From Nitratireductor mangrovi (lineage in GTDB: Bacteria > Pseudomonadota > Alphaproteobacteria > Rhizobiales > Rhizobiaceae), in assembly GCF_007922615.2 (NCBI RefSeq), contig NZ_CP042301.2, positions 4,510,001-4,574,000 of the forward strand: a DNA stretch of 64,000 nucleotides, read 5' to 3'. The notes beneath the pieces were generated by a model, which was not told the DNA's origin, searched no databases, and saw only the letters and a program-made list of their open reading frames with translations. This document shows positions 37,955-45,947 of the stretch, piece by piece (position 1 is the stretch's first letter; every line of letters begins with the position of its first letter). Both the position numbers and the translations under genes were made by a program.

Positions 37955-38344
37955 CTAGTCGAAGTCGCAGCCGCCGGCGTCGATCCCGATCACCTCGTCG
38001 AACAGGACCCGCGCATTGCAGCTTTCCGCCGTGTCGGCCCATATCGGCCCGAAGCACTGCTCGCCGTCCGGGGTCACCAGTTCCACGAACCAGCGGTGCC
38101 CTTCATAGGTGCCGAAGCCGATCTCCTCGAACGGCTGCACCAGCGCGTATTCCTGCAGCAGGCCGTCGAATCCCGCCCAGTAGACGTAGAAGGCATATTG
38201 GGTATCGTTGTAGAAGCTGATCCCGGTCGCCGCGTTGCTGGCCGGCGAGGGGTCCTGGCTCGGCTCGCATTTCTGCGCCAGTGCCGGCGCAATGCCGGCA
38301 ACCGCCGCGGCGAGCCCCGCGGCCAGCATGATCCTGAGCGACAT
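37955..38344 (-). CDS. exported protein resembling the VHL beta domain
   Basis: A 129-residue product with a signal peptide (cleavage after ALA, before QKCEPS). The mature part has [20 protein letters not shown], a following [20 protein letters not shown] and [18 protein letters not shown]. This order matches the beta domain of the von Hippel-Lindau protein: F-x-N-x-T/S ... V-x-W-x-x-F-D-G ... Y ... P ... T-Y/F-x-G-H-x-W. Four cysteines probably form disulfides in the periplasm. No elongin-binding helix is present. The match is by eye from memory of the human sequence. Confidence 0.7.
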
Positions 38345-38498
38345 CCCGATCCACCTTTCCTGGAAAGAACCGCGCCACACGGCGCGGCTTTCGCAGATTG
38401 CCGCGGCCGCCGGCGAAAGCAAGCGCCTGTTGCCGCCGCTGTCGCGCTTTCTTTTTCCGGCTTTGCCTTCCGCGCTGCGCCTGCTAGATGCGCGCCTC

Positions 38499-40304
<1,806 letters not shown>

Positions 40305-40399: not shown

Positions 40400-40434
40400 C
40401 GTCTATGACACGCGATGACTTCCTTCCTCGTTGA

Positions 40435-40516
40435 GGGGGGGGCGAGCTGCCGGTTCGCGAAGCGAATCCGTCGTGCCGGTGGCCGATGGAAGGCCGGCGA
40501 GCGCCGGGACGGTGCG
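40435..40516 (-). repeat. inverted copy of the 140-bp repeat, left of the AT-rich cassette
   Basis: On the minus strand this matches the part of the 43291 repeat running from GCGTCCCGGCGCTCGCC to GGCTGCTCGCCCCCC, with only a few differences over about 80 bases. Conserved parts include the complement of GGTTCGCGAAGCGAATCCGT and GCCGGCGAGCGCCGGGAC. It is opposite in orientation to the copies at 43291-43612. Confidence 0.75.
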
Positions 40517-40591
40517 TAGCACGGCGCTGCGATGTCACTCTTCCGGTAGCGACAGTCTCGCTGGCGCGGGCGTACACCAGCTCATCCTATG

Positions 40592-41329
40592 CTAACCCCG
40601 TCGCCAAACTTCGGGATGCAGAGCGCTGATTGCCTTAAGCCGTTTAAGGCGCTCTTTGTCTTCCTTAATGTCATTGACGCCTGAATCGCCGCCGTCAAGC
40701 GGGGACTTAGACGCCATCCGCAGCAACTCGTCGATCTCCTCAGCCGCACCTTGGACGGCCGATGAAGCGTCCTTTACGGCTCTAAATGCTCGGGCCTTGA
40801 TCTCTTTGGGCAAGCCATCCATAGGAAATTTTCTTAAGCTATGTACGCCGCCGGCGACGTATTCTTCGCACTCAGTAAGTCGCCTTCGTAGGTCTCTAAG
40901 ACGTCGCAGCGAGCTCCTATTCAGAGCGACCGCGTCAATTGTGAACTCACCTATGGCCGTCTTCCCCTCGACCCGCAGCTCGGAGACCGAAAAATGCCTC
41001 TCGCGCTGGTCCCAGTCCGGTCTAAATATACGATATCCCAAATTCTTGATCTTTTCGGAAAGCAATCGCGCACCTTTTCGTGTATTGCACTCATCACAAC
41101 AGTAAAGCAAGTTTTCGTATTCGTTTATCAGGTCAGGGCGATGTTTTTGGGATTCGTAATGATCTATGGTAAAGCGAATAGCTGTTGCTTCAGATTCCGA
41201 CATTGTGCAATATGCACAGGAAAAAAAGAAGTCTCGTCGAAGTAATGGTTTGTAATCTTGATATTTCATTCCGGTTGGAGCTTGGGAGCGTACAACATCA
41301 GCGCCTTTTTCTACGACCTCATTCGGCAT
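40592..41329 (-). CDS. HNH endonuclease-like protein of the AT-rich cassette
   Basis: A 245-residue protein. Residues about 37-90 hold the HNH core with zinc knuckles: CAYC (near 38), the central D-H in FTIDHYESQ, and CDEC followed by N-x-R-K-G (LLYCCDECNTRKG). This is the layout of TIGR02646/PtuB-type and McrA-like HNH nucleases. The C-terminal half is helical and charged, without a known domain. The start follows the TAG of the preceding gene with no spacing, so it is the third gene of a tight operon. Base composition is markedly more AT-rich than the flanks. Confidence 0.82.
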   Translation of the reverse strand: MPNEVVEKGADVVRSQAPTGMKYQDYKPLLRRDFFFSCAYCTMSESEATAIRFTIDHYESQKHRPDLINEYENLLYCCDECNTRKGARLLSEKIKNLGYRIFRPDWDQRERHFSVSELRVEGKTAIGEFTIDAVALNRSSLRRLRDLRRRLTECEEYVAGGVHSLRKFPMDGLPKEIKARAFRAVKDASSAVQGAAEEIDELLRMASKSPLDGGDSGVNDIKEDKERLKRLKAISALHPEVWRRG

Positions 41330-41794
41330 CTAGCGCTTCCCCTTTTTCATAAATCGCTCCAATTCCGAACGAAGCGCGGATAGTTCTTTACCCAGTCGCT
41401 CGTACATATCAATCTTAGATTCAATTGCATCTAAGTGAAGTCCATGTCTTGCGTCCTCTATCCGGTCTAGCGACCAATCGACATAGGTTAGTCTGTTTTG
41501 TTCTTGCCGGCTAAGTCCGGTTTCAAATTTTTTCTGTACAAGCTGATGTCTTTCTTCAAGAAGATTGTTTCGTTCAGATTCAGATATTTTCGAAGCATTT
41601 ATTCGACCAGCGGCGCGAGCGCTGGCGGCTCTGGCGAGTCGTTCGACGCTAGTCCCCCTGAATTCAAGTGCCTCTGGCTCGGGGGAATCGTCTCCGACCC
41701 AGCTTGCTTCCCCTGATCTAAACGGAGAAGTAGAACCTTCGGAATCAAGTGGATCAATGTCAAGAGTTAGTTGTCGATCGGAGGATCTCTTCAT
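41330..41794 (-). CDS. coiled-coil protein of the AT-rich cassette, unknown
   Basis: I recognise no family. From the ATG at 41794 the product is 154 residues: a polar, acidic N-terminal 60 residues, likely disordered, then a helical region with heptad-like patterns (ERNNLLEERHQLVQKKF; DMYERLGKELSALRSELERF) and a lysine-rich end. Alternative ATGs at 41818 and 41833 would lengthen the overlap with the upstream gene; at 41794 the overlap is 35 bases. Codon use is AT-rich. It may be an adaptor or antitoxin-like partner for the nuclease; this is inference from gene order only. Confidence 0.68.
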   Translation of the reverse strand: MKRSSDRQLTLDIDPLDSEGSTSPFRSGEASWVGDDSPEPEALEFRGTSVERLARAASARAAGRINASKISESERNNLLEERHQLVQKKFETGLSRQEQNRLTYVDWSLDRIEDARHGLHLDAIESKIDMYERLGKELSALRSELERFMKKGKR

Positions 41795-42554
41795 CAAATC
41801 GGTTCCCTTCACCCACATCTTCGAAGTATGCAAGCGCTGAACGCCTAGCTCGTTCCAATTCTTCCTTCAATACGTCTTTCGTTATCGGTTTTATTTTTCT
41901 GTAATTTCGTTGCCAATCAAGTTTGACGGAAAGCATAGTATTTTCTTGGTCGTCACTTTTTTTAATTTGATGGATGCATCTATCAGTGTGCTCATCATTA
42001 TTATCAACTATGCCAGTTATGTTAACGGAGAATCCTCCTGTTACGTCTATCCATGGCCGCCGAAAATAGGTAATCAATCGTGTCAGGCCAGGTGGCAAGT
42101 CCTTCTCATCAACATCTGTAGTGCTAACTATGCCAGTTCTTGTGATGTGTCGTTCCTTGCTGCGCGGCAGGCATAATGTCGCCTCCACGAGGCGGTCTAG
42201 GATGGTTGGGAGGAGCGTCGTGTAGGGTTGTGCGGACGACAGTAACTCGCCCACGGGGAGCCCCCCGCTTACCGATCTGAAGCGCATCTTATGTTGAAAA
42301 TTGACAAAAACGCGGTGAAAATCGATCCCGTACTTAAAACCGTCGTCTCCGGAAAACTCAAAGGCAAAAGGTTCATTCTTTTCGACCGTTATATTTGTTG
42401 GTGTATCTGCCGCTATCTTGTTTAATAGGGGAGATAAACTATCAAGTAGAGAACTGCCTGATGCAAAGTGCGGTTCTAGTCCAAATCCAGCGCTTGGCAC
42501 CGAGAATAATTTATCGCACCAACTCACTATTCGCCTCCGTTCTTCGGTCCGCAT
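41760..42554 (-). CDS. unrecognised first protein of the AT-rich cassette
   Basis: A 264-residue soluble protein without a recognisable motif. It mixes strands and helices, with aromatic segments such as FAFEFSGDDGFKYGIDFHRVF and WIDVTGGFSVNITG, and ends in a charged helical stretch (DVLKEELERARRSALAYFEDV). The overall look recalls the sporadically distributed TIGR04255-type proteins, but I cannot confirm that. The ATG at 42554 has a GAGG site; an in-frame start at 42728 would add a GC-rich, low-complexity leader and is less likely. It is the first gene of the leftward three-gene unit. Confidence 0.65.
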   Translation of the reverse strand: MRTEERRRIVSWCDKLFSVPSAGFGLEPHFASGSSLLDSLSPLLNKIAADTPTNITVEKNEPFAFEFSGDDGFKYGIDFHRVFVNFQHKMRFRSVSGGLPVGELLSSAQPYTTLLPTILDRLVEATLCLPRSKERHITRTGIVSTTDVDEKDLPPGLTRLITYFRRPWIDVTGGFSVNITGIVDNNDEHTDRCIHQIKKSDDQENTMLSVKLDWQRNYRKIKPITKDVLKEELERARRSALAYFEDVGEGNRFDEEILRSTTNS

Positions 42555-43019: not shown

Positions 43020-43290
43020 TCTTCCCCTTTCAATGGCCAGACGCGTTTCGCGGGCGTGGTCGCGACGGCGCATGCCGCAAGGCCGACGGGCCGTCGCGCC
43101 TCATGGCGCGCCCCCGCGGAGGCCAGCGAGCCGAAAGGCGAGCGCACGGCCGTGAGCGAAAGGAGAAAAGCGTGTGCACAGGAATGGCGAAACGAGCGCG
43201 GCCGGCCAATCTCCCCACCCGTGGGGGAGATGTCCGGCAGGACAGAGGGGGGCGCGAAGGGGCACCGGCCTCTCCGCGAATCCTCCCCCG

Positions 43291-43612
43291 CTTCGCAGGG
43301 GAGGATCGGCGCCCGCATCTCCGGCGTTGGCCGGGTCCCCGCTGCCTTCGCAGCGTCCCGGCGCTCGCCGGCCTTCCGTCGTGCCACCGGCACGACGGAT
43401 TCGCTTCGCGAACCGGCTGCTCGCCCCCCGCTTCGCAGGGGAGGATCGGCGCCCGCATCTCCGGCGTTGGCCGGGTCCCCGCTGCTTTCGCAGCGTCCCG
43501 GCGCTCGCCGGCCTTCCGTCGTGCCACCGGCACGACGGATTCGCGTCGCGAACCGGCTGCTCGCCCCCCGCTTCGCAGGGGAGGATTGGCACCCGCATCG
43601 CCGGCGTCGGCC
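43291..43612 (+). repeat. tandem 140-bp C/G-rich repeat (2.3 copies)
   Basis: Units start with CTTCGCAGGGGAGGAT at 43291, 43431 and 43571, an exact 140-base period; the third is cut after about 40 bases. Within each unit is the perfect palindrome CCGTCGTGCC-ACC-GGCACGACGG. Copies one and two differ at only a couple of positions. A reverse-oriented relative lies at 40435-40516, on the other side of the AT-rich cassette. Reading frames through it are low-complexity and not genes. Confidence 0.88.
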
Positions 43613-43704
43613 ACCCTCGCCGCCACCCCCTTCAAAACACCTTTTCCACCGGGGAAAAAGTCCTTGATACCTTTTACGAATTGACGCCTTCCGCTGCCTT
43701 GTGT

Positions 43705-43716
43705 TGAACGCGTTCA
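43705..43716. promoter_or_regulatory. palindromic operator candidate before glcB
   Basis: TGAACGCGTTCA is a perfect 12-bp palindrome 54 bases before the glcB ATG. It overlaps the -10 position of a weak promoter candidate (TTGACG at 43681, 17-base spacer, TTGAAC). Size and placement suit a LacI- or GntR-type repressor. Confidence 0.42.
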
Positions 43717-43769
43717 CTTTCATGTCAGGCAATGCTGGCGTTGCGGGCCGGCCCGGAAAGCGAGGCGGG

Positions 43770-45947
43770 ATGAGCGAGCGGATCGAGATCGAGGGCCTGA
43801 AGGTCGACCGGGTGCTTTTTGATTTCGTGGTCGGCGAGGCCCTGCCGGGCACCGGCGTCGAGCCGCCAAAATTCTGGGCCGAGCTGTCGCGCATCGTGCA
43901 TGAGCTGACGCCGAAGAACCGCGCGCTCCTGAAAAGGCGCGACGAGCTGCAGGAAAAGATCGACCGCTGGCACCGCGACAATGGCGCCCCGTCCGACCTT
44001 GCCGCCTACAAGGCGTTCCTGACCGACATCGGCTATCTGAAGCCCGAGGGGCCGGCCTTCTCCGTCACCACCGCCCATGTCGATCCCGAGATCGCCGGCA
44101 TCGCCGGCCCGCAGCTGGTGGTGCCGGTGATGAATGCGCGCTACGCGCTCAACGCCGCCAATGCACGCTGGGGCTCGCTCTACGACGCGCTTTACGGCAC
44201 CGACGCCATTCCCGAATCCGACGGCGCCGAAAAGGGCGAGGCCTACAATCCGCGCCGCGGCAACCGCGTCATCGCCTGGGCGCGCGCCTTCCTCGACGAC
44301 GCCTGCCCGACCGGGGCCGGAGATTATGGCTGGGCCGCGATCCGCGGCCTCAGGGTCGAGAACGGCCGCCTCGTGCTCGACTTCCCGGCCGCCTCCGCCG
44401 GCCTCGCCGACCCGGCGCAGTTTGCCGGCTACACCGGCGCGACCGAGGCCCCGAGCAGCGTCTACCTGAGAAAGAACGGCCTCCACATCCAGGTCGTCAT
44501 CGACCGCAGCCACCCGATCGGCGCCAACGACCCGGCCGGCATCGCCGACGTCGTGCTGGAGGCCGCCGTCACCACGATCATGGACTGCGAGGATTCGGTC
44601 GCCGCCGTCGATGCCGAGGACAAGGTCGTCGCCTACCGCAACTGGCTCGGCCTGATGCGCGGCGACCTTGCCGAGGAGGTCACCAAGGACAAGACCTTCG
44701 TGCGCCGGCTGAGGCCCGACCGCGAGCTTTCCGCGCCCGACGGCTCGAAGGCGACGCTGCCCGGCCGCTCGCTGATGCTGGTGCGCAATGTCGGCCACCT
44801 GATGACCAATCCGGCGATCCTCGACCGCGACGGCGCCGAGGTGCCGGAAGGCATCATGGACGCCATGATGACCGGCATGATCGCGCTACACGATGTCGGC
44901 CCGCGCGGCCGCCGCGCCAATTCGCGCGCCGGCTCGGTCTATGTCGTCAAGCCCAAGATGCACGGGCCGGAGGAGGTGGCCTTCGCCGTCGAGCTGTTCG
45001 GCCGCGTCGAGGCTGCGCTCGGCATGGCCAGAAACACCATCAAGATGGGCATCATGGACGAGGAGCGCCGCACCACGGTCAACCTCAAGGAGGCGATCCG
45101 CGCGGCCGCCGAGCGTGTCGTCTTCATCAACACCGGCTTTCTCGACCGCACCGGCGACGAGATCCACACCTCGATGGAGGCCGGGCCGATGATCCGCAAG
45201 GGCGACATGAAGCAGGCCGCCTGGATTGCCGCCTACGAGGCCTGGAACGTCGATATCGGGCTCGAATGCGGGCTCGCCGGCCACGCCCAGATCGGCAAGG
45301 GCATGTGGGCGATGCCGGACCTGATGGCCGCCATGCTCGAACAGAAGATCGGCCATCCGAAGGCCGGCGCCAACACCGCCTGGGTGCCGTCGCCGACCGC
45401 CGCCACGCTGCACGCCACCCATTACCACAAGGTCGACGTCGCCGCCGTGCAGGAAGAGCTCAAGGAGCGCCCGCGCGCCAGCCTCGACGACATCCTGTCG
45501 GTGCCGGTCGCCACCCGGCCCAACTGGTCGGAGGAGGACAAGCGCCAGGAACTCAGGAACAACGCGCAGGGCATTCTCGGCTATGTCGTGCGCTGGATCG
45601 ACCAGGGCGTCGGCTGCTCCAAGGTGCCCGACATCAACGATGTCGGCCTGATGGAGGACCGCGCCACCTTGCGCATCTCCTCCCAGCACATGGCCAACTG
45701 GCTGCATCACGGCGTCGTCTCCAAGGACGAGGTGATGGCGGTGATGAAGGAGATGGCCGCGGTCGTCGACCGCCAGAACGAGGCCGACCCGAACTACCGG
45801 CCGATGGCGCCCGATTTCGAGGGCTCCATCGCCTTCCAGGCCGCCTGCGACCTCGTGTTCAAGGGCCGCGAGCAGCCGAGCGGCTACACCGAGCCGGTGC
45901 TGCATCGCCGCCGGCTGGAGCTGAAGGCGCAGCGCGCCGCCGGCTGA
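43770..45947 (+). CDS. glcB: malate synthase G
   Basis: Condenses glyoxylate with acetyl-CoA to malate in the glyoxylate shunt or glycolate use. The 725 residues match the long G isoform (A isoform about 540). Recognisable stretches include [15 protein letters not shown] (metal/catalytic acid region), [51 protein letters not shown] and the C-terminal [20 protein letters not shown] with the family's Asp base. ATG 43770 has a GGCGGG site. It stands alone between the repeat region and tsaB; no isocitrate lyase gene is present. Confidence 0.96.

Follow-up and report, generated by a model that had tools for sequence, protein, structure and literature searches.

A mobile three-gene unit of Nitratireductor mangrovi joins a predicted PtuB-type HNH nuclease to two undescribed protein families

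Between lepA and glcB of Nitratireductor mangrovi lie three minus-strand open reading frames (ORFs), A, B and C, within the 64-kb window analyzed here (positions 4510001-4574000 of a genome present as one 4.86 Mb contig). The trio is a self-contained, horizontally moving three-gene unit, recently acquired. It holds no ATPase gene, and its C gene encodes an HNH nuclease that is of the PtuB type by profile and predicted fold. A PtuB-based system variety with two undescribed partner families (A and B) is new. The whole is read as a mobile system in which a PtuB-type effector, C, is governed by A and B in anti-phage defence, a reading given a probability of roughly 0.5. On this reading the trio suggests that bacteria have a further variety of defence against viruses, in which a nuclease of an anti-virus kind is apparently run by two undescribed partners in place of the usual ATPase. 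The features of the unit are as follows.

Gene A, 41760..42527, minus strand: undescribed family; 255 amino acids (aa) with the start at GTG 42527 and 264 aa with that at ATG 42554.
Likely ribosome-binding site of A, 42534..42538, minus strand: GGAGG, from the sequence, 6 nucleotides (nt) before the GTG.
Gene B, 41330..41794, minus strand: 154 aa; begins within A.
Gene C, 40592..41329, minus strand: 245 aa; HNH nuclease assigned to the PtuB type from profiles and a fold prediction.
HNH motif of C, 41075..41218, minus strand: residues 38-85, CxYC ... DHY ... NL ... CxxCNxxK; bases derived from residue numbers.

In the window A and B share 35 nt and the stop of B abuts the ATG of C, in keeping with an earlier note on this DNA, which had described the three leftward genes as overlapping or abutting and taken them for a single unit. 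To this the relatives add a recurring A-B-C order. Ten relative loci were fetched, A leading to five chromosomal contigs and a single viral one and C to four more viral contigs; co-occurrence counts rest on these ten, not on all of the 133 proteins matching A or the 147 matching C in the database (query included in each). The trio was complete and in order in 8/10 (4 chromosomal, 4 viral contigs), and the two incomplete loci were cut by contig ends, L005 76 nt past A and L007 inside A. Failure of the genes to co-occur elsewhere, named in the earlier note as fatal to its proposal, was checked in this neighborhood survey and was not what the loci gave: the trio is kept together, and its protein distances are correlated across nine trios (A-B r = 0.84, Mantel P = 0.003; A-C r = 0.76, P = 0.013; B-C r = 0.76, P = 0.012). 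B starts inside A in 9/9 trios (overlap 11-35 nt), and where a C start could be assigned (seven trios) the B-C spacing is -20 to +6 nt. Start codons in this comparison were hand-picked, and no usable start was found for A in L006 and L046, nor for C in L006 and L048. In the genome of L005, a family-C piece with one stop stands on a separate contig (L013), possibly a decayed or assembly-split trio.

The trio is foreign to its surroundings in composition and sporadic in distribution, and on both counts the earlier description held. GC content is 0.457, 0.475 and 0.499 in A, B and C vs. 0.659-0.740 in seven flanking genes, and third-position GC is 0.447, 0.390 and 0.502 vs. 0.857-0.930. The trio is the most AT-rich 2 kb within the window, and trio GC was lower than that of the flanks at 9/9 loci. 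Gene A is rare: it was found in 1/385 genomes of the class, in 1/61 relatives (with 0/3 other genomes of the genus) and in 1/397 genomes of the order of a Mesorhizobium relative, each time only in the genome on which the search was centered. A match to C occurred in 96/385 genomes, at 370 bits in the own genome and at no more than 37 bits, over the HNH core only, in the others; 5/5 genomes with A also carried a C match at 310-358 bits. B was found in 1/201 genomes of relatives, its own.

Phage genes stand near the trio on viral contigs, namely endolysin and tail genes in L046, transposase and major head genes in L047 and tape measure and integrase genes in L048; head and recombinase genes share the contig of L007, where the trio is cut off. 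A chromosomal trio (L003) lies ~0.8 kb from an integrase gene. Neighboring genes scanned with Pfam or PHROGs were metabolic or phage genes, with 2/10 proteins scanned from the viral contigs unmatched (one being the sole protein from L049). With B as query, the viral collection yielded three confirmed loci, none of them outside the contigs already in the trio set. With 5/10 fetched loci on viral contigs, the genes might be a phage-derived set with a phage function (e.g. packaging or homing) left on chromosomes; this is considered very improbable.

Gene C matches the Pfam HNH family (PF01844, E = 2.7e-5; 24.7 bits where 21.4 are required), which agrees with the HNH nuclease recognized in the earlier note, and the PtuB profiles of PADLOC (best E = 2.1e-15). 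It stays far below what NCBIfam requires for PtuB (27.3 bits where 150 are needed) and for TIGR02646 (28 bits where 52.15 are needed). The best nine PDB fold matches of the C model are PtuAB complexes, and the matches of this moderate-confidence model include the PtuB effector of type I-A retrons (9u9y_H, 9nnb_J, 9vh1_F). The predicted catalytic residues are conserved. The aligned part spans residues 10-145, and ~100 further C-terminal residues are modeled as long helices.

In Septu, the HNH nuclease PtuB acts with the ABC-type ATPase PtuA. C has the PtuB feature, but differs by its extra C-terminal residues, and PtuA is not in the trio unit, where two other proteins stand in its place. Only A, B and C recur across the fetched loci, and an AAA_21 search of five trio genomes gave, among the matches listed, none within 40 kb of the trio. 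The absence of PtuA beside the nuclease, claimed before, is upheld, and the trio is not a Septu member because the ATPase is missing. The remoteness from Septu implied by that claim did not hold, as the nuclease is specifically PtuB-type and closer to Septu and retron effectors; by analogy, the trio may well work like Septu. Type I-A retrons (Ec78, i.e. Eco7) share the PtuB effector with C according to the fold matches above, but no reverse transcriptase, msr-msd or PtuA, as in retrons Ec78 (Eco7) and Ec83, was seen in the trio, with no search aimed at reverse transcriptase or non-coding RNA. The HNH core is also common to C and CBASS Cap5, where the fold score is lower (best 6.5), and the three-gene unit is without a cyclase. 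Literature searches (titles and abstracts on HNH, three-gene and PtuAB systems and PDC names; preprints and most subscription papers outside scope) returned no description of the trio and no paper naming TIGR02646.

For gene A, the start at GTG 42527 is likelier than that at ATG 42554, because proteins of the family begin at SWCDKL, with M, V or L just ahead of it, and GGAGG lies 6 nt upstream. The ORF of 264 aa in the earlier note thus exists, but its protein is more likely of 255 aa. A is without a match in Pfam, NCBIfam or PADLOC, and a scan of 41 family members gave scattered hits only, each in a single member. The A model is confident (pLDDT 93.1, pTM 0.88), with helices close to the start, antiparallel strands and a long C-terminal helix. 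Among the 120 relatives listed, PPG is kept in 120/120, a DRCxH-like motif in 117/120 and a DWQR-like motif in 118/120; the latter two map to consecutive strands of the model (189-199 and 207-223), read as a putative functional site. B is probably helical, judging from its sequence. It matched four database proteins (query included) and no PADLOC or NCBIfam family, with sub-threshold Pfam hits only. B has diverged among relatives (25-40% identity to the window B), yet is present in 8/8 complete loci. The conserved end of A encodes the ribosome-binding site and start of B, which points to translational coupling.

By analogy with PtuAB, the most likely role of A and B is that of a sensor or gate that controls C without an ATPase. 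They would take over the regulation that falls to the ATPase PtuA in Septu and in the Ec78 and Ec83 retrons, with A (possibly TIGR04255-like, see below) proposed as sensor or gate and B proposed as a linker between A and the additional helices at the C-terminus of C. Translational coupling would let A, B and C be co-produced and form an inactive complex, in which C would be activated by a phage product or by a change that infection causes. Active C would then cut nucleic acid, either phage DNA or, as reported for some PtuAB, host tRNA, and the cutting would stop phage multiplication, probably at the cell's cost. In the excerpts consulted of PMC11555353 and PMC13096335, both PtuAB partners are required for growth arrest, H and N residues of PtuB are indispensable and the infection aborts, with tRNA-Tyr or nicked DNA as the reported substrates.

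Several points weigh against this reading. A was not found in 50,697 phage or 72,556 plasmid records; in the plasmid records C gave just two partial matches (31-41% identity, 33-48% of length). Because every contig in the viral collection is viral, the finds there are evidence of carriage and not of enrichment. Confidence in the C model is moderate (pLDDT 74.9, pTM 0.56), and Foldseek superposes it loosely on its matches (TM 0.32-0.37, rmsd 9.5-18). The PDB fold search with the A model gave no clear solved-structure match, and no known sensing domain was found in A. The complex, its gating, trigger and substrate and the defence role are what we infer by analogy.

A small, tight operon with the nuclease gene last, carried on viral contigs and chromosomes, would also suit a toxin-antitoxin-like addiction module, in which C is the nuclease toxin, A and/or B the antitoxin, a prophage or island is stabilized and phage protection is a by-product. 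This is judged unlikely, A being a 255-aa globular protein with conserved motifs. The unit, with its three conserved genes and a pair of partners that are large or slow to be replaced, exceeds what a typical type II toxin-antitoxin pair needs. In the part of PMC11555353 consulted, the PtuAB effector of retron Eco7 acts as a toxin, but PtuB alone is not toxic. A restriction-like system, in which A and/or B recognize foreign or modified DNA, C cleaves it and the cell survives, is quite unlikely: HNH nucleases occur in many DNA-cleaving systems, but a methyltransferase is not part of the trio unit and neither A nor B has a known DNA-recognition domain by Pfam, NCBIfam or PADLOC. Nicked phage DNA is the reported target of Septu PtuAB (as cited in the excerpt of PMC11555353), but some PtuAB target tRNA according to the same partial sources. 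Should governance of C by A and B in defence prove true, the PtuB nuclease would be a portable effector served by two or more different controller types, the role of PtuA's ATPase would become testable by comparison, two nameless protein families would acquire a role and sporadTIGR04255 (see below) would have its first functional hypothesis.

Profile comparison suggests a tentative remote homology of A to sporadTIGR04255, a family named in no paper found within the same literature scope. The link was first raised by eye, from a like order of strands and helices in A, and the first (untrimmed) profile comparisons gave nothing (probability 0.25%, then 1.2-2.4%). A later A profile, with gap-rich columns trimmed and divergent relatives added, was compared with 28 TIGR04255 proteins. 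The local alignment scored 27.1 (P = 0.0027, probability 11%, 207 columns) against a decoy maximum of 23.3 and a control against C of 21.4 over 41 columns; global hhalign scored 23.3 (P = 2e-4, probability only 22%, 224 columns) against a decoy maximum of 17.9 and controls of 1.4 and 6.3. The trimmed alignment exceeded 100/100 block-shuffled decoys. Plain hidden Markov model searches were weak: E < 1 was reached by 17 A proteins in forward order, 3 in reversed order and 1 C protein, and in the reverse direction forward and reversed sequences were intermixed. A lies under the curated cut-off of sporadTIGR04255 (30 bits) with no NCBIfam match, the family was matched in 0/41 A members, and a TIGR04255 search of the own genome gave 0 matches.

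TIGR04255 was found at 28 places, and wider stretches were fetched for 20 (L104-L123). Like A in the trio, the TIGR04255 gene stands first among three touching genes on one strand, in 16/20 loci vs. 8/32 control ORFs; the function of these cassettes is undescribed. Their second and third genes vary, are mostly without a Pfam match and are not B or C, and ten scanned proteins had no Pfam nuclease domain. One of ten proteins scanned from these loci matches PDC-M32A, a candidate phage-defence family in PADLOC (E = 7.7e-7), which hints at a link of the cassettes to defence. It is doubtful, though possible, that A and TIGR04255 form one superfamily heading an undescribed three-gene class (sensor, overlapping second gene, exchangeable effector), of which the window trio would be the branch that recruited a PtuB nuclease, so that PtuB runs without any ATPase. 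The PDC-M32A match is the GWDG-motif second gene of its cassette (L121:3992-4477, minus strand). TIGR04255-cassette genes in L050, L105, L111, L113 and L117 share a QTCDI/SNSCDI/TQDCDL-like motif, and in L050 and L111 the motif gene is preceded by a helix-turn-helix-looking gene (Pfam HTH_3 in L111).

The surroundings of the trio in the window are as follows.

lepA, 38235-40304, ending at 40304: neighbor on the C side.
Dispersed genomic repeat, lepA-side copy, 40421..40519, no strand assigned.
Dispersed genomic repeat, glcB side, 43285..43612, no strand assigned: tandem copies of a 140-nt unit, inverted relative to the lepA-side copy.
glcB, 43701-45947, ORF from 43701: neighbor on the A side.

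A tRNA search of the window found none. In four related genomes (three of the genus, one of the family), none of five glcB loci had lepA nearby, so an empty insertion site could not be read from them; the lepA-glcB junction may be particular to the lineage. The trio is flanked by inverted copies of the dispersed repeat, which gave seven matches in the genome; these seven include the query itself and two more in the window, and other copies lie elsewhere in the genome. Recombination between these repeats may have aided insertion of the island.
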